The notes below the pieces were generated by a model. It was not told the DNA's origin. It worked only from the letters and a program-made list of their open reading frames with translations, and did no database searches. From positions 1 through 33,685 of the IMG/VR virus record IMGVR_UViG_3300009506_000125: a DNA stretch of 33,685 nt. One strand, 5' to 3'. Source of the stretch: a virus. Both the position numbers and the translations under genes were made by a program. Every line of letters starts with the position of its first letter. Positions within the stretch are counted from its first letter, which is position 1. Shown here one piece after another: positions 2,426-22,021 of this stretch.

Positions 2426-2457
2426 AATTGAGAGGGGCTTGATTGCCCCTCAATTTT
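2426..2457 (+). terminator. Terminator-like hairpin after ERF, ahead of the pentamer array
   Basis: AATTGA and GGGGC (2426-2438, two-base bulge between them) pair with GCCCC and TCAATT (2445-2455); the loop is six bases, and four T follow. An upstream TTTTAA allows weak action on the other strand. It would separate ERF from the array, or become a regulated stop if the array is read from the same transcript. Confidence 0.5.
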
Positions 2458-2460
2458 AAT

Positions 2461-2535
2461 GGGAAGGGCCTGGACAGCATAGGCGAGAAGGGGATGGGAA
2501 CGTCTGGGATTGGGAGATAGAGGTTTGGCAAGGAT
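2461..2535 (+). repeat. GG-phased pentamer array, segment A
   Basis: Read in fives from 2461, the form is NGGNN: 11 of 15 pentamers have GG at positions 2-3 and 14 of 15 have G at position 2. The stretch is poor in C and so should be single-stranded as RNA. It starts with GGGAAGGGCCTGGA (2461-2474), repeated exactly at 2758-2771 with further similarity beyond. It leads directly into the first tRNA-like hairpin. Confidence 0.75.
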
Positions 2536-2536
2536 A

Positions 2537-2579
2537 TAGTGGTGATAGTCGTAGTGGAGTGCAACTCTCCACATCACTA
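2537..2579 (+). ncRNA. tRNA-like minihelix 1
   Basis: TAGTGGTG (2537-2544) pairs with CATCACTA (2572-2579), eight base pairs including one G-U. An unpaired linker follows (2545-2554). TGGAG (2555-2559) pairs with CTCCA (2567-2571) around the seven-base loop TGCAACT (2560-2566). The T-stem abuts the acceptor strand with no gap, giving a 13-bp stack as in the top half of a tRNA. C56 and A58 equivalents are present. A2580 follows in the discriminator position; no CCA is encoded. D and anticodon arms are absent. Not a functional tRNA by known rules. Confidence 0.7.
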
Positions 2580-2590
2580 ATTCTGATAAT

Positions 2591-2650
2591 GGAATGGACG
2601 GCACAGGACGGGTAAGTCGGGGACTGTGAAGTAAAGGAATGGAATGGCCA
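2591..2650 (+). repeat. GG-phased pentamer array, segment B
   Basis: Between minihelices 1 and 2, twelve consecutive pentamers from 2591 all begin with G and eight begin with GG (form GGNNN). The motif GGTAAGTC (2611-2618) recurs in segment C at 2779-2786. No coding frame or hairpin explains the phase. Confidence 0.75.
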
Positions 2651-2691
2651 TAGTGGTATTGGTAATGGAGGTTCGACTCCTCCAACCACTA
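2651..2691 (+). ncRNA. tRNA-like minihelix 2
   Basis: TAGTGGT (2651-2657) pairs perfectly with ACCACTA (2685-2691). The T-arm GGAGG (2667-2671) pairs with CCTCC (2679-2683) around TTCGACT, a textbook T-loop. T2666 can also pair with A2684, making a continuous 13-bp stack. The linker ATTGGTAA (2658-2665) resembles a D-loop, with a GG that could dock on the T-loop. An A follows the acceptor strand. A separate small hairpin (GTTCC/GGAAC, 2695-2708) comes right after it. Confidence 0.75.
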
Positions 2692-2700
2692 AATGTTCCA

Positions 2701-2825
2701 CGAGGAACAGACCAGACCGGAGCGGATTGGAACGTCGAGGCAGGGATCGGACTGAACGGGAAGGGCCTGGAATGTATAGGTAAGTCAAGGCACAGAAAGT
2801 CAAGGATTGGAAAGCAAGGGAAAGG
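2701..2825 (+). repeat. GG-phased pentamer array, segment C (25 units)
   Basis: Read in fives from 2701, all 25 pentamers have a G at position 4 or 5 and 16 have GG at both (form NNNGG). It contains the second copies of GGGAAGGGCCTGGA (2758-2771), GGAACGTC (2729-2736, first copy 2497-2504) and GGTAAGTC (2779-2786). It ends about 25 bases before the RAMP-like gene, whose AAGGAG ribosome site lies at 2838-2843. Confidence 0.8.
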
Positions 2826-2851
2826 CAACTTTTTAACAAGGAGAAAATAAA

Positions 2852-3451
2852 ATGATAAGAGCAAATGTAACAATCAGAGGCATAAAACCCTTCATTTTTC
2901 ACAAATTCAATTTAGAATCCATAACGGATACAAGAAAACCACGAGAGGGATCAGCAGGAAACAACCCCAACGAATGGAGAGATTCTTTTTTCCATAGAAA
3001 TGGACAACTTTACATGCCAGGAACCTACATGTTTGCGTCGTTAAGAAATGGTGCAGTCCACACAAAAGTAGGAAGAGGTACCATTCAAAAAACATGGATA
3101 TCTGCTGTCACAGTAGACGACGAAATCATTGTATTTAACCGACACATGTTCGATAACTGGGAAAATATAGAACCAGAAAACATACCACAAGATTCTAATC
3201 TCCCTGTTTATGTGGATATCAGAATGGTAAGCAATCCTAATACGAAAGGAAAAAACGTGAGATACCGAATAGCTATGTCACCAGGATGGGAATGCTCCTT
3301 TTCCTTAACAATAGATAATTCCTTGGTATCTCAAGCTCAAGCAAAGAAAGTTATTGAAGATGCAGGGAAACTTCAGGGAATAGCAGACGGAAGAACTTTG
3401 GGCTATGGTAGATTTGAAGTTGTTAAATGTGATTTTGAGCCCTTAACATAA
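2852..3451 (+). CDS. RAMP-like (Cas7-like?) phage protein of unknown function
   Basis: The 199-aa product starts with a beta strand and loop, MIRANVTIRGIKPFIFHKF, and ends with a glycine-rich segment, QGIADGRTLGYGRFEV (175-190), which resembles the G-loop of RAMP/Cas7-type RNA-binding proteins. From memory, phages carry a family of such proteins, often beside recombination genes, with starts like 'v.i.G..Pllmh' and ends like 'G.gd.R...GRFev'; none has an assigned job that I know of. AAGGAG stands nine bases before the ATG. The gene sits between two G-pentamer arrays carrying tRNA-like hairpins, so an RNA-binding role is attractive (inference). Gene existence is secure; the RAMP relationship is tentative. 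Confidence 0.65.
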   Translation: MIRANVTIRGIKPFIFHKFNLESITDTRKPREGSAGNNPNEWRDSFFHRNGQLYMPGTYMFASLRNGAVHTKVGRGTIQKTWISAVTVDDEIIVFNRHMFDNWENIEPENIPQDSNLPVYVDIRMVSNPNTKGKNVRYRIAMSPGWECSFSLTIDNSLVSQAQAKKVIEDAGKLQGIADGRTLGYGRFEVVKCDFEPLT

Positions 3452-3485
3452 AACCTTCAAACTCTGTAGCCCTTTTAATCTATTT

Positions 3486-3540
3486 TACGGCACGGCATGG
3501 AGGAGAGAGGGTTGGATTGCTTGGGCATGGTTAGGTTCGG
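3486..3540 (+). repeat. GG-phased pentamer array, segment D
   Basis: Eleven pentamers in the NNNGG phase: nine have GG at positions 4-5 and the other two have one G there. The flank begins with ATTTTACGG (3482-3490), repeated exactly 100 bases later at 3582-3590, so minihelix 3 is inserted between two identically started arrays in the same phase. Confidence 0.75.
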
Positions 3541-3581
3541 CGGCGTGATAGGCTCCACGGGGTGCAAGTCCCCGACGCCGC
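3540..3581 (+). ncRNA. tRNA-like minihelix 3
   Basis: GCGGCGT (3540-3546) pairs perfectly with ACGCCGC (3575-3581). After an 11-base linker (3547-3557), CGGGG (3558-3562) pairs with CCCCG (3570-3574) around TGCAAGT. The T-stem directly abuts the acceptor strand: a 12-bp tRNA-type stack. The stems differ in sequence from minihelices 1 and 2 while the architecture is kept, which argues for selection on structure. The linker starts GATAG as in minihelix 1. An A (3582) occupies the discriminator place. Confidence 0.75.
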
Positions 3582-3585
3582 ATTT

Positions 3586-3670
3586 TACGGATGGGAAGGT
3601 ATTGGATTGGCGAGATGTGGACAGGGAAGATGTGGCATGAATAGGACAGTTATAGCAAGGCAAGGAGAGG
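3586..3670 (+). repeat. GG-phased pentamer array, segment E
   Basis: Seventeen pentamers in the same NNNGG phase as segment D: 11 with GG and all with G at position 4 or 5. The last units (CAAGG, CAAGG, AGAGG) double as the ribosome-binding site of the membrane protein starting at 3675. Confidence 0.75.
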
Positions 3671-3674
3671 TCTT

Positions 3675-10258: not shown

Positions 10259-11107
10259 TCAAGAATCTATTTGCTTCGCTTCGTCTGGCCACGGAACGTG
10301 CGACCAGCTTTTGCCATGTTTGATAGAATATACATGAGTTCTACTCAAACCAAATTCTATTGCTAAATTTGCCCCAACCTCACCAGAAATCAATCTTCTT
10401 TTTATCTCTATTACCTGATTCTCCGTTAGCTTGGAATTCCAGTTTTTTTCACCAATAGTCATATCTCTACCATCTTTCTTGCGATCATTCGCATTTTCCT
10501 TTGCATCGCCAATTTTCAGATGATCGGGACAACAACATGCAGGATTTCCACCACCAGGGCATTTATGAAGGACAAATGCTTTTTTTGGTATTGGCTCATT
10601 GAAAACTGAGTAAGAAAGACGATGGGATGTCCATTGCCGTCCGTTTATCTTGCATTTACCATATCCAGCTCTATTTAATCCGTTTTGCCAGATCCAGCAC
10701 CCGTTTTCGTTTATTTTTACATTTTCTCTAATATGATTTTGGATTTCACGTATCGTTTTTTTCTTGGCTGTTCCTTTTCCAAAACAGTGCCTACAATATC
10801 CTGTTCTTTTTTTGGAAGCATTCATTACCACAATTCTTTCGGCTTTACAGATTGGACAAATAATTTTTTTACCCTTAAATCTTAGTCCTGATTTTGAGAT
10901 ATAGATTTCGTCTTCGTTGGTTAAGATATATCCTTCTCTTGCATAATTTCTGCAGGACACGCAATAGCCCTTATGTGTTTTAAAATCTCGTTTGTCTATC
11001 TCCAAAATCTTCTTACAGCGCCTGCATTCTATACGAATGTATTTTCTTTTTTTTGGATCTTTGGGGCTTTTTTTTGTAACTTCTTTGTAAAATTCTTCGT
11101 AAAGCAT
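10259..11107 (-). CDS. HNH homing-type endonuclease with two zinc ribbons
   Basis: The 282-aa product has, in order, a zinc ribbon (C28, C31, C49, C52), a second ribbon (C84, C87, C105, C108), an HNH core (about 136-205: CWIWQNGLNRAGYGKCKING, SHRLSY, HKCPGGGNPACCCPDHLKIG) and a C-terminal helix-turn-helix (about 225-270: LTENQVIEIKRRLISGEVGA, FGLSRTHVYSIKHGKSW). This is a free-standing HNH endonuclease of the kind that spreads between phages by cutting sites in relatives. It is followed by a normal fibre-cluster gene and lacks a clear ribosome site. A terminator of the upstream fibre gene (11167-11195) sits just before it, so it may depend on its own weak promoter. Confidence 0.88.
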   Translation of the reverse strand: MLYEEFYKEVTKKSPKDPKKRKYIRIECRRCKKILEIDKRDFKTHKGYCVSCRNYAREGYILTNEDEIYISKSGLRFKGKKIICPICKAERIVVMNASKKRTGYCRHCFGKGTAKKKTIREIQNHIRENVKINENGCWIWQNGLNRAGYGKCKINGRQWTSHRLSYSVFNEPIPKKAFVLHKCPGGGNPACCCPDHLKIGDAKENANDRKKDGRDMTIGEKNWNSKLTENQVIEIKRRLISGEVGANLAIEFGLSRTHVYSIKHGKSWSHVPWPDEAKQIDS

Positions 11108-11224: not shown

Positions 11225-14116
11225 TTAGTCCATAACCCAAAAGTTTGTGATTATGTCCGTGTTCAAAGCCGCTGGACCAGAATTGGTTAGGTGAATTACT
11301 ATCGAACCAACTGCTTGTCTAACGCCCTCGATCGTCAAATCCGCATCGTTTCCTCCCGATTTAGTACATACAGAAACAAACACAACAGACTCTGCTAATA
11401 TATTAGTGTTGTTAATAGTTAGATCTAAATCTGCACCACTCGCAGTAGTAAACGAATCCCAAACTATTGAACCAACTCTAGCATTCAAAGTCTGAGATAC
11501 TGTTGGAGACGATTGAGTTCCAGTAGACGCTGTAACGGCTACATTTCCACTTGACGAGATAGATATTTCACCTCCCCCAGTAAGCAAATCGATGCCCCCG
11601 CTAGCATCACTCGCATTCAAGACGATCGCATCTGCAGCCGCCTGAGTTGCTGTGATATTAACCGATCCCCCAGTGCTGATAAGGCTGAGGTCTTGAGCTG
11701 CTCCAGTAACGGTAAAGTTAGAGGCTGTAGCTGCGTCTAGGCTGATTCCAGCAGCAGTATCAACCGTGATGGCTCCTGCAGATGCGGAACCGACAGCGAT
11801 CACGTGTGCCGCAGCTCCTGTCGCCAAGTTCAAAGCGCCTGCTCTTGTACTAGTTAGCACATTCAAAGTCTGAGTACCAGCAGTTGCAGCACCTGTTAAA
11901 ATGTTAACGGTACTATTTGCCGCAGAAGCCCCACTAGCTACGTTAATAACTTGTGCTCCCGCATTAATAGCGTTACCAACGTTGATGGTTTGTCCGCCAG
12001 CAGCGGTACTTTGACCTATCGTGATGGTTCCTGTTCCAGTCGCACCACCGAGGGCAATCGTTCCTGTAGTCATCGCATTACCAATAGCGACCGATCCACC
12101 AGTTTGGGTATTACCGATAGCTATAACGTTGGCACCAGTTCCTCCAACGTTGATGTTGTTGGCCATAGCAGCCCCTGTACCAACGTTGACGGTACCTGCC
12201 TGCCCAGTCTGAGTTAGCAAGTTAAGTACTTGAGTCCCCCCAGAAGGCACACCGCTTAAGATGTTAACGGTTTGAGCGTTAGCCGATGGGTTGCCGGTCA
12301 TCAGGTTAAAGGTATCGTTCTGGGCACTGTTGCCACCACAAACGTTAACCGTTCTAGCGGCCGCCGGAGCGATATCAGCAATATCAACGGTAGTTACTCG
12401 AGTATTGTTAGCTAGATTCAGCACTCCAGCCCCTGCGGTACCAACACCACTCAAGACATTGACGGTAGAATCTGCAGCAGATGCCCCGTTAGCAATGTTA
12501 ACAGTTTGAGCGGTAGAGTTAACTCCATTACCCATACTTACGGTTAATGATCCGCCAATACCGTTACCTAAATTAAGTGCTTGAGTACCACCTGTTGCTG
12601 TTCCACATAGAACATTAACAGTTTGAGTATTCAGCGAAGGCGCACCATTCATGATGTTTAGGGTATCATTCACAGCGCTGTCACCACCTAATATAGTAGT
12701 AGTTCTGGCAGCCGCAGGAGCAATATTACCAAGAGTAATAGCTGTTACTCTTGTATTATTTGCCATATTGAGCTGAGCAGCACCCGCAGTACCAACACCC
12801 GTCAAGATATTAACATTTGAATTGGCAGCACTAGCACCAGTTGCAATGTTAATTGTCTGCGCCCCAGCGTTTATCCCAGCGCCCACGTTGATGGTCTGAC
12901 CAGCTGTCGACTTACCAAGTGTTAAGGTTCCTGTCATGGTGGCAGCGCCTAGATCAATGGTTCCAGCAGCAGCTCCAGTACAAGAGAAGTTGCCTGTGCC
13001 ATACAGAATGTCTACTTGTGCAGCCCCTGTTACCGATCCTATTGTGGTAACATGCGCAGCAGCTCCGGTTGCTAGGTTAAGAACACCGGCTCGGTTTCCA
13101 GTAAGGACATTAAGGGTTTGTGCACCGGCCGATGCGTTTCCTGAAAGGATGTTAACTGTACTATTAGCAGCACTGGCACCAGCAGCTACGTTTATGGTCT
13201 GAGGAGACGAGTTAGCTCCATTTCCAAGACTAATGGTATTTCCTCCAATTCCGGCTCCGATATTGATGGTAGCCGCACCAGCTCCTCCACCAAGGGTTAG
13301 GGTTTGCGCTGCCGAAGAAGAGCCAACAGTAATTACACCAGTTCCATCTGAACGCCCTATAGTAATTGTTCCTGCTGCAACAGGAGTTACTGCAAAGTTT
13401 CCTGTACCACATTGTAATATTAAACTTGCTGCACCTGTTTGCGAACCTATAGTGACGGTGTGCGCTGCAGCCGAATTTGCTATTGCTACCGCTCTCGCTA
13501 CATTTCCCAAACCAATATTAACTGCATCTCCAGAGTTGTCAGAACCCAGGTTTAGTGCTGTTCCTGCTGTTAAAATCGTTGCCGACCCACTCAAAGACGC
13601 AAGACCAGATGCTGCAAGTGTTGTAAAACTACCAGCAGCGGCAGTCGTTCCCCCAATCGCTCCTGGAGATCCAAGAATAGACGCCACATTAGAAGGTACT
13701 AGTGCTTTATCTGTTGCGGTTTGCGCTAATGCTTCCGCATTGGTAGCAATCTCTATAATACCTTTCACTGCTGTTGTAGCATCTGGTGATCCCGCAATCG
13801 CCAAAGCATCAGCATAGGTTTTAACAGCTAGAGAGGTTGGTACGTCGGAATTATCGGCTCCGGCTAACGTACCATCGGTGTTGATTAAAACAATACCTGC
13901 TACCGTCGTCGTCGCTGCTTGGTTACCACCAGTCTGCCAAGTACCTCCTCCTAAATGATCGTATATAACTGAAGGAGATGCACTATCATCAACCCAGACA
14001 TACCCTACTGGATATTCGGTGTCGGCGGTCGTTGGCGCTCTTTGCGCTACTTTTGCAGGTGGCTGTACATCAACAAATGGTGAACTTCTTCCTACTGCTT
14101 GTTCTATTCTTGGCAT
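11225..14116 (-). CDS. Long repetitive tail fibre (beta-solenoid, 963 aa)
   Basis: GGGGGA precedes the ATG. Residues 1-100 hold an N-terminal attachment region (PVGYVWVDDSASPSVIYDHL). Residues 160-800 are short strands in repeating turns such as GQTINVGNAINAGAQVINVA and GTITIGQSTAAGG. Four longer repeats start with GASAANSTVN-type strings at about 313, 428, 544 and 729. Copies 2 and 3 share the tail VLSGVGTAGAGVLNLANNTR and copies 1 and 4 share LNLATGAAAHV, so the order is A-B-B-A. A globular C-terminal domain (about 880-963) follows. No residues mark an enzyme. Probably a long side fibre. Confidence 0.75.
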   Translation of the reverse strand: MPRIEQAVGRSSPFVDVQPPAKVAQRAPTTADTEYPVGYVWVDDSASPSVIYDHLGGGTWQTGGNQAATTTVAGIVLINTDGTLAGADNSDVPTSLAVKTYADALAIAGSPDATTAVKGIIEIATNAEALAQTATDKALVPSNVASILGSPGAIGGTTAAAGSFTTLAASGLASLSGSATILTAGTALNLGSDNSGDAVNIGLGNVARAVAIANSAAAHTVTIGSQTGAASLILQCGTGNFAVTPVAAGTITIGRSDGTGVITVGSSSAAQTLTLGGGAGAATINIGAGIGGNTISLGNGANSSPQTINVAAGASAANSTVNILSGNASAGAQTLNVLTGNRAGVLNLATGAAAHVTTIGSVTGAAQVDILYGTGNFSCTGAAAGTIDLGAATMTGTLTLGKSTAGQTINVGAGINAGAQTINIATGASAANSNVNILTGVGTAGAAQLNMANNTRVTAITLGNIAPAAARTTTILGGDSAVNDTLNIMNGAPSLNTQTVNVLCGTATGGTQALNLGNGIGGSLTVSMGNGVNSTAQTVNIANGASAADSTVNVLSGVGTAGAGVLNLANNTRVTTVDIADIAPAAARTVNVCGGNSAQNDTFNLMTGNPSANAQTVNILSGVPSGGTQVLNLLTQTGQAGTVNVGTGAAMANNINVGGTGANVIAIGNTQTGGSVAIGNAMTTGTIALGGATGTGTITIGQSTAAGGQTINVGNAINAGAQVINVASGASAANSTVNILTGAATAGTQTLNVLTSTRAGALNLATGAAAHVIAVGSASAGAITVDTAAGISLDAATASNFTVTGAAQDLSLISTGGSVNITATQAAADAIVLNASDASGGIDLLTGGGEISISSSGNVAVTASTGTQSSPTVSQTLNARVGSIVWDSFTTASGADLDLTINNTNILAESVVFVSVCTKSGGNDADLTIEGVRQAVGSIVIHLTNSGPAALNTDIITNFWVMD

Positions 14117-20814: not shown

Positions 20815-21464
20815 TAATTTCCTATGGCTAACCAGTAAAATTGAAAGCTATGACTTCCGTTATTATATACTTGAAATCCAGATGTTGTTAAATTTGATGT
20901 CGAAACCCACGCATCTGTTACATTACCTGGAGATGATGGAGCTCGATATCCTGTTACCTGAATGTTCCACACATTGTTAGGAAACGTCCTTGGAAACGTA
21001 TAAGTAAAAACATCAGTCGATGCAGCCGTATTACTATTACCCCATTGCATGATTAATCCACCAGGAAGAAACGTCCACCCACCATTTAAGCTAGGGGGAC
21101 CTACTTGATAATTTGTATCAGTTCCAAATGTTGTAATATTACCGTCTGCCCCAGCAGTACTAGTTGTTAATTGATAAGAACTTCCAGTATTTTCTCCTCG
21201 AAAATGCAACTGAGAAACACCTCCAACTGCGGCAACATACAACCCACCCTCGTTAGCGGCGGTGGCTGGTGGGCTAGAATTGTTATCCCAACCTGTTCCA
21301 GATTCCGGGAGTTGCAGAAATTTATGCTTCCCATCATTGCTTGTAGTCAACGGTATGTGGTTTTTACCAAATGCGGTGTTAATATCAGAGAAGTTCTGTT
21401 GGATGATCGGTTGCGTCTCGCCTAATGACTGGCCGCTAGCCGGAACCGAAGTATTATAGGTCAT
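20814..21464 (-). CDS. Tail fibre protein with gp53-like C-terminal domain (216 aa)
   Basis: The C-terminal half contains GGWTFLPGGLIMQWGNSN, then FTYTFPRTFPNNVWNIQVTG, and ends FQVYNNGSHSFQFYWLAIGN. This is the layout of the short fibre/collar C-terminal domain seen at fibre tips ('.W..l.gGlilQWG.....tv.FP..Fp...w.i...'). The N-terminal part (SLGETQPIIQQNFSDINTAF) is a likely attachment helix. It is encoded between the gp4- and gp10-like genes, where P22 places its needle gene 26 slightly later, and it may be a needle-tip or fibre. ATGA overlap with the HNH gene. Confidence 0.75.
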   Translation of the reverse strand: MTYNTSVPASGQSLGETQPIIQQNFSDINTAFGKNHIPLTTSNDGKHKFLQLPESGTGWDNNSSPPATAANEGGLYVAAVGGVSQLHFRGENTGSSYQLTTSTAGADGNITTFGTDTNYQVGPPSLNGGWTFLPGGLIMQWGNSNTAASTDVFTYTFPRTFPNNVWNIQVTGYRAPSSPGNVTDAWVSTSNLTTSGFQVYNNGSHSFQFYWLAIGN

Positions 21465-22021
21465 TGGTTATTAACAACATATGTCGCCCCCTTTTTGGTT
21501 TCACTTATTTTCTTTTTAGTTTCTTCGCTTCTTTTTTTTTCTTTCCAATAACGTACAGGATTTTTTATCTTTGCTTCACTCATTTTTCTTTTAGCATCTT
21601 CAGACATCTTTCTTCCTCTTTGATCTGGAAGTCGTCTCTTTACTTTTGCATCTTGAATATTGTCTTTACATGTTCCCAACCACAAATGGCTCGGATTCAC
21701 ACAATGTTTTACATCACAAGAATGACATACATATAAACCTTTTCCAATTTCACCTTTAAAGGCCACATACGATGCTCGGTGTGAGCTGATTGTCTTTCCT
21801 TTATAATCGATCTTGCCATATCCATTGCAGGACATCGACCCATTCCAAATCCAGCAATCATTTTTATTCTTTTCACATCGTTGCAAAATTATATCCTTCA
21901 TACTCGTATGTTTATGCTCTTCCATACATTTTCTTGAGCAATATTTCTTTCTTCCTTTCCTGCACGCATATGCCTCACACTCTTTCTTGCAATTTTGACA
22001 TTCGAAAATAAACTTCTTCAT
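21461..22021 (-). CDS. HNH endonuclease with NUMOD3 repeats (186 aa)
   Basis: An N-terminal Cys cluster (FECQNCKKECEAYACR, KYCSRKC) is probably a zinc finger. The HNH core is at about 52-125: DCWIWNGSMSCNGYGKIDYK, SSHRASYVAFKG, YVCHSCDVKHCVNPSHLWLG. Two NUMOD3-type DNA-binding repeats follow (RGRKMSEDAKRKMSEAKI, KRSEETKKKISETKKG). This is a free-standing homing endonuclease inserted between the gp4-like and fibre genes. AAAGGAG lies six bases before its ATG, so it is well translated from the late message. Its HNH core resembles that of the other endonuclease at 10.3-11.1 kb, but the accessory domains differ. Confidence 0.9.
   Translation of the reverse strand: MKKFIFECQNCKKECEAYACRKGRKKYCSRKCMEEHKHTSMKDIILQRCEKNKNDCWIWNGSMSCNGYGKIDYKGKTISSHRASYVAFKGEIGKGLYVCHSCDVKHCVNPSHLWLGTCKDNIQDAKVKRRLPDQRGRKMSEDAKRKMSEAKIKNPVRYWKEKKRSEETKKKISETKKGATYVVNNQ

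Follow-up and report, generated by a model that had tools for sequence, protein, structure and literature searches.

The window, meaning the whole stretch of DNA analysed, was IMG/VR record IMGVR_UViG_3300009506_000125, a virus sequence of 33,685 nt, with positions 2461–3670 as the region of interest. The record carries terminase, portal and Erf genes, i.e. the setting is that of a phage. In the region of interest, a gene for a 199-aa protein (vipr) is flanked on its own strand by five or six arrays of GGM/NN pentamers, read here as guide arrays. The upstream neighbours of vipr encode an ERF annealing protein and a PDDEXK nuclease, and a 50-aa ORF lies downstream. The features were located as follows.

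2432–2451, plus strand: terminator-like hairpin between the Erf gene and array 1 (a consensus match only; two found versus 1.3 expected in shuffles)
2461–2536, plus strand: putative guide array 1, about 15 GGMNN units (lag signal, composition, scan)
2537–2579, plus strand: tRNA-like minihelix 1, 13 bp, T loop TGCAACT, followed by purine A2580
2591–2650, plus strand: putative guide array 2, 12 units (lag signal, composition, scan)
2651–2691, plus strand: tRNA-like minihelix 2, 13 bp, T loop TTCGACT, GG in the linker, followed by purine A2692
2701–2825, plus strand: putative guide array 3, ~25 units, probably comprising two guides (the half that begins near 2754 resembles array 1)
2852–3451, plus strand: vipr gene, 199-aa RAMP with a predicted Cas7/Csm3-like fold
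3482–3490, plus strand: ATTTTACGG, leader of array 4, repeated before array 5 at 3582–3590
3486–3539, plus strand: putative guide array 4, about 11 units (lag signal, composition, scan)
3540–3581, plus strand: tRNA-like minihelix 3, 12 bp, T loop TGCAAGT, GG in the linker, followed by purine A3582
3586–3670, plus strand: putative guide array 5, 17 units (lag signal, composition, scan)

The arrays comprised about 11–17 units each, except for array 3 (about 25). GGGAAGGGCCTGGA stands at the start of array 1 (2461) and again near the start of the second half of array 3 (2758), with 22 of 30 bases identical. As the second half begins like array 1, array 3 probably consists of two guides joined, judging by its sequence. 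The end of array 5 overlaps a Shine-Dalgarno-like AAGGAGAGG ahead of the 50-aa ORF at 3674. No sigma-70-like promoter was found on the plus strand.

Just upstream of the arrays (1088–2349), the window encodes a PDDEXK/RecB-like exonuclease (weak Cas4 match, E 0.0013) and an Erf single-strand annealing protein. A recombination module thus adjoins the vipr locus.

An earlier note on this DNA had described five segments with GG phased at every fifth base. Within these segments, G–G coincidences numbered 107, 99 and 97 at lags 5, 10 and 15, while the means of dinucleotide shuffles were 65, 61 and 57 (z = 9.4, 8.2 and 8.6). G–G pairs were depleted at lags 2, 3, 7, 8, 12 and 13. The proposed check of lag-5 autocorrelation against shuffled controls therefore came out in favour of the signal. 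We also ran an unbiased scan for phased GG over the whole 33,685-base record (75-nt scan windows, both strands, periods 3–7). The top five non-overlapping period-5 windows on the plus strand were the five reported segments, at the coordinates given in the note, with GG in 0.60–0.73 of units; the next-ranking period-5 window on either strand reached 0.40. Chance G-rich sequence is a practically negligible explanation: the z-scores against shuffles are 8–9, the five segments are the top five of the record, and equivalent arrays lie at the same gene in relatives. Chance or low complexity was rejected by the shuffle z-scores and the whole-record scan.

Among complete units, GG occupied the phase positions in 51 of 76, and 75 of 76 had at least one G. 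The earlier count of 55 of 80 with GG was reproduced when partial units were included, and that of 79 of 80 with at least one G was right within the choice of unit boundaries. The composition per unit was G (92%), G (74%) and A/C (83%), followed by two positions of any base (1.89 and 1.91 bits). The consensus is G-G-A/C-N-N (GGMNN), so that each unit has two or three fixed bases as an anchor and two that are free. The last two positions are near maximal entropy, as would be expected if the arrays were guides.

The GG start modulo 5 was 1, 0, 3, 3 and 3 for arrays 1–5. The phase is kept across minihelix 3, as the earlier note had observed, but is lost across minihelices 1 and 2, and phase continuity across minihelices was rejected as a rule. 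Because of these two breaks, the 100-base spacing at minihelix 3 is probably a coincidence plus the common ATTTTACGG leader, and separate RNAs fit better than one continuous filament.

The 199-aa ORF at 2852–3451 had no match in Pfam, and PADLOC had no model for the protein. PHROG 4652 matched residues 5–190 (E 7.5e-13), and the Vipr protein of Escherichia phage SUSP1 belongs to the same PHROG (E 1.4e-96). A two-sequence profile searched against the PDB gave 36pp, 'SUSP1 Vipr protein', as its sole sequence match (E 3.3e-4), and hhalign against a profile of six Viprs gave a probability of 98.3 (E 2.6e-14). The AlphaFold2 prediction reached pLDDT 75 and pTM 0.73 from four sequences, and pLDDT 39 from two sequences only. 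Among the best 50 PDB matches of the predicted fold in Foldseek, nearly all were Csm or type VII CRISPR effector entries; the top matches had E-values from 8e-7 and a probability of 1.00, with a TM score of only ~0.45. From chain lengths and entry titles, we read the matched chains as Cas7-type backbone subunits. The 199-aa protein is a RAMP of the Vipr family.

VIPR was described in 2026 as a phage-borne, CRISPR-like, RNA-guided system (PMC13142463, bioRxiv 2026.04.26.720920). According to the main text of PMC13142463, its vrRNAs consist of 9–16 YNNGG units (GGY/NN). These arrays contact DNA through their NN dinucleotides, which base-pair with a one-base skip; transcription of rival phages and satellites is thereby repressed. 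The same text gives seven VIPR types, with arrays that are staggered, hammerhead-interspersed or of a single vrRNA and with 'a related consensus' in some types. It names SUSP1 and a Pseudomonas fulva prophage as examples, reports for SUSP1 that vrRNA is transcribed and copurifies with Vipr, and states that a vap accessory gene typically adjoins vipr.

The window resembles these systems in being phage-borne, in having a Vipr-family RAMP gene (~20 kDa class) between pentamer arrays on the same strand, and in units that combine a GG-containing conserved triplet with two hypervariable bases. It differs in the triplet, which is GGA/GGC in the window and GGY in those systems, and in the tRNA-like minihelices that split its arrays, of which the main text of PMC13142463 makes no mention. 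Compared with Cas7/Csm3 backbone subunits of Class 1 CRISPR systems, the predicted fold is alike (Foldseek probability 1.00), whereas the TM score is ~0.45, identity is 10–16% and the pitch is five bases in the window versus six. No CRISPR array or other cas genes were seen. The window locus almost certainly belongs to VIPR, and its pentamer arrays are thereby assigned to a recently described, RNA-guided system related to CRISPR. The earlier note had proposed that an oligomeric protein reads an RNA in steps of five bases. This fits Vipr and the pentamer-phased vrRNAs (main text of PMC13142463); the guide code of two variable bases had been missed. The 199-aa protein as the partner also fits, given its Vipr family (PHROG 4652, hhalign) and Cas7/Csm3-like predicted fold.

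By homology with SUSP1, each array would be coated by Vipr subunits, with its GG-containing triplets held by protein. The variable dinucleotide of a unit would base-pair with DNA at a one-base skip and thereby repress competing phages or satellites. Targets were sought in 1.16 Mb of related loci (two NN registers, skips 0–3), where only chance scores occurred apart from the arrays themselves. Three 8-unit seeds gave 14, 30 and 31 matches in IMG/VR, with flanking agreement at chance (0.26, 0.32 and 0.20). As no target was found, it is homology that the guide function rests on.

This search result would also suit a protein-coated regulatory or sponge RNA that is held at a five-base pitch, in the manner of TRAP, and has no guide function. 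Such an RNA would share the period-5 spacing and the neighbouring RNA-binding-like protein. Nevertheless, it is highly improbable: hhalign identifies the protein as Vipr and not TRAP, Vipr systems are experimentally guide systems (main text of PMC13142463), and the last two unit positions are near maximal entropy, as expected of guides. A TRAP-type regulator was rejected on protein family and on the units, which are GGMNN and not (G/U)AG. Of the two analogies drawn in the earlier note, that to TRAP hence fails, and that to Cas7 was the right lead, given the Csm3/Cas7-like predicted fold.

Single-sequence searches with the window Vipr gave no match, neither by tblastn against INPHARED (E 0.01) nor in single-protein scans of IMG/VR and GTDB contigs. 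Two relatives came from a search of portal-protein relatives, and the remaining ones from a DNA pattern based on the conserved PNTKGKNVRY stretch, followed by a four-sequence alignment-guided scan. Together, pattern and scan gave 17 IMG/VR loci encoding Vipr relatives, some of them on the same contig or near-duplicates. The closest were L097/L100 (64% identical) and L098/L099 (62%), both with near-perfect GGANN arrays beside vipr. Pentamer arrays flank most Vipr relatives (L097/L100, L098/L099, L101, L109 and, as GCANN, G033), so that the earlier expectation of arrays at the same locus in relatives held: they flank the same gene there. The G033/G034 Vipr (43% identical) goes with a long series of GCANN arrays in tandem, which end in GAGG and a run of T. 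The VIPR guide code is thereby extended to GGA/GGC triplets, and to GCA in a relative. Named phages with Vipr homologs were LittleE, prophiBWHA-1, Trine, MakoManhole, Medea1, LESphi2, Quico and Pipp.

Several loci differed in layout. About a dozen GCANN arrays lie upstream of the 43%-identical Vipr (L087, ~2470–3148, and L085, 1–370; G033), each ending in GAGG or GCAAAGG plus a T run, so that both the guide consensus (GCA/NN) and the separator are unlike those of the window. Long GGC-phased arrays stand beside distant Vipr homologs in Mycobacterium phage Quico (L093, 1688–1977) and Gordonia phage Pipp (L094, 2688–2934). These have GGCAGGC boundaries and no minihelix, and possibly represent the 'staggered' architecture of the VIPR preprint. 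In L107 and L112, Vipr homologs lie directly 5' of ORFs that look HNH nuclease-like by eye, and no pentamer array was detected nearby.

All three array-to-array junctions in the window carry a minihelix. It consists of a 7-bp acceptor-like stem, a linker of 8–11 nt, a T stem of 5–6 bp and a 7-nt T loop. The helices of minihelices 1, 2 and 3 comprise 13, 13 and 12 bp, with no mismatch in any. The D-loop-like linker has GG, which might form a tRNA elbow with the T loop, in minihelices 2 and 3 but not in minihelix 1, and two of the window T loops have G at position 55. A canonical tRNA or known Rfam RNA was rejected, as ARAGORN and Rfam at the gathering threshold found none in the window. The best Rfam match of minihelix 3 was to full-length mascRNA-menRNA, with an E-value of 0.13 and below the gathering score.

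In related phage loci (2.14 Mb of strand), a strict scan rule for the minihelix, adjusted after the window had been seen, found five structures; under this rule, the 1.2-kb stretch holds three minihelices versus 0.003 expected. To avoid the circularity of a rule tuned on the window, covariance models were trained without it. Model R1 was trained on two Gordonia phages and model R2 on the actinobacteriophage copies of LittleE, Trine and MakoManhole. The top two hits of R1 on the window were minihelices 1 and 2 (E 0.017 and 0.033; next hit 4.7). The top three of R2 were minihelices 2, 1 and 3 (E 0.0096, 0.49 and 0.57), with a fourth hit elsewhere at 0.82; the R2 E-values of minihelices 1 and 3 alone are not significant, and their weight comes from rank and position. 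Across 466 kb, the best three hits of R2 were junctions in prophiBWHA-1, L100 and the window.

The same minihelix occurs between arrays in five other Vipr phages (L100, LittleE, prophiBWHA-1, Trine and MakoManhole). Copies were registered by hand and by covariance model, since MAFFT misaligned minihelices with variable linkers. Fifteen copies registered by hand, from the loop outward, have 11–13 pairs. Every copy has G-C as its innermost pair, as tRNA does at G53-C61, and the remaining pairs vary with compensation. A purine follows the helix in 15 of 15 copies, and the linker GG is present in 14 of 15. In a covariation test of nine copies, 100% of cells were paired and nine of 12 pairs had changed on both sides, on a model-made alignment that is fitted to the structure and thus favours this result somewhat. 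None of 500 shuffles was as good, and slid controls were only 44–65% paired. The hand comparison of the 15 copies agrees with this result. The minihelices are very probably real, conserved tRNA-like structures.

In a tree of 22 proteins, the minihelix-bearing Viprs fell into two clades split at 100/99 support, one with four actinobacteriophage Viprs and the other with the window and L100; long branches meet in this tree, and its deeper joins are uncertain. L099, the sister of L100, and SUSP1 have no minihelix, which shows that it is unnecessary for VIPR. As two distant clades have it while L099 and SUSP1 do not, the minihelix is thus an optional module that was gained repeatedly, lost, or moved by recombination.

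The minihelices were compared with known RNase P and RNase Z substrates. mascRNA/menRNA (RF01684; the MALAT1/MEN-beta tRNA-like elements) are such substrates (PMC11693755) and were, as noted, the best sub-threshold Rfam match of minihelix 3. They likewise have an acceptor stem and T arm, and their reduced D region and two Gs facing the T loop resemble the GG-containing linker of most phage copies. Unlike the phage element, they are eukaryotic and have an anticodon-like stem, where the phage element has only the 8–11 nt linker. The T-loop/D-loop elbow of mascRNA is a recognition site for RNase P as well as for RNase Z (PMC11693755). Bacterial RNase P copes with heavily truncated tRNAs and also cleaves substrates other than tRNA (PMC4919922).

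It is fairly likely, from this anatomy, that the minihelices are RNase P/Z processing sites. One transcript would carry several guides. A cut by host RNase P at the 5' edge of the minihelix would define the 3' end of the guide before it. Past the purine discriminator, a second cut, by RNase Z or else by RNase E together with exonucleases, would define the 5' end of the guide that follows. Several guides could be released in this way without a phage nuclease, as in hammerhead-interspersed VIPR arrays but by host tRNA enzymes, and would then be coated by Vipr. In L109 (4498–4567; the same in L110), a GGANN array 3' of vipr is followed without a gap by a degenerate tRNA of full length (ARAGORN tRNA-???), as though a complete tRNA stood in for the minihelix; this fits a processing role.

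The main rival accepts the VIPR locus but takes the minihelix as a 3' tail or cap that belongs to the guide and is bound by Vipr or shields the RNA end, like the pseudoknotted tail of SUSP1. The minihelix directly follows window arrays 1, 2 and 4, which have no other tail, just as the SUSP1 tail directly follows its array (main text of PMC13142463). Other guides speak against this: no minihelix follows window arrays 3 and 5, the Trine minihelix precedes the first array, and each LittleE guide has a hairpin tail of its own ahead of the minihelix. The guides of LittleE and MakoManhole have a conserved 3' tail (mostly ...GGTA) whose last base directly adjoins the minihelix; the tail is present on the last LittleE guide too, but there a terminator-like hairpin takes the place of the minihelix. 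As the tail stops at the minihelix and the last LittleE guide lacks one, the minihelix lies between the RNAs and not within them. Moreover, the T-arm features match tRNA-enzyme recognition. We consider a tail or cap unlikely.

A decayed VIPR locus, with arrays and minihelices as relics that have no present function, was also weighed. GG occupancy in the window is 67–74%, versus near-perfect GGANN in L100 and L099, and the window arrays may therefore be relaxed or partly decaying. No target was found, and no clear promoter. Against full decay, the reading frame of vipr is intact and conserved, and all three minihelices hold 12–13 pairs without mismatch, which makes it quite improbable.

As a whole, the evidence is probably best explained by a phage-borne VIPR system whose guides are split by tRNA-like minihelices and would be released by host enzymes. 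What looks new is the separation of guides by miniature tRNA look-alikes, seen in no fewer than six Vipr loci. Neither tRNA nor RNase P is mentioned in the main text of PMC13142463; its supplement may describe tRNA-like arrays. On balance, we lean towards the view that phages in two distant Vipr clades naturally build polycistronic arrays of tRNA-like elements and guides, in which minimal acceptor/T-arm elements recruit host RNase P and RNase Z.

Engineered polycistronic tRNA-gRNA arrays (PMC6297969) also place tRNA or tRNA-like units between guides, for cutting by host RNase P and RNase Z, a step that in the window is suggested by anatomy. They are man-made, with full tRNAs and Cas9/Cas13 guides, whereas the window arrangement is natural and minimal and carries putative Vipr guides. 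If host RNase P/Z do cut the minihelices, phages multiplex guides through borrowed tRNA maturation, as engineers later designed. The locus would then be nature's parallel to engineered tRNA-gRNA multiplexing; it would also offer an alternative, based on host enzymes, to the hammerhead-interspersed layout of VIPR arrays, and it could supply compact natural processing cassettes for VIPR tools.

Elsewhere in the window, two ORFs on the minus strand (10259–11107 and 21461–22021) look HNH homing endonuclease-like by eye and are inserted among structural genes. A 963-aa protein encoded on the minus strand (11225–14116) has degenerate G/A/N-rich repeats (NVGAGINAGAQTINIA-type) and is probably a tail-fibre or beta-helix protein.
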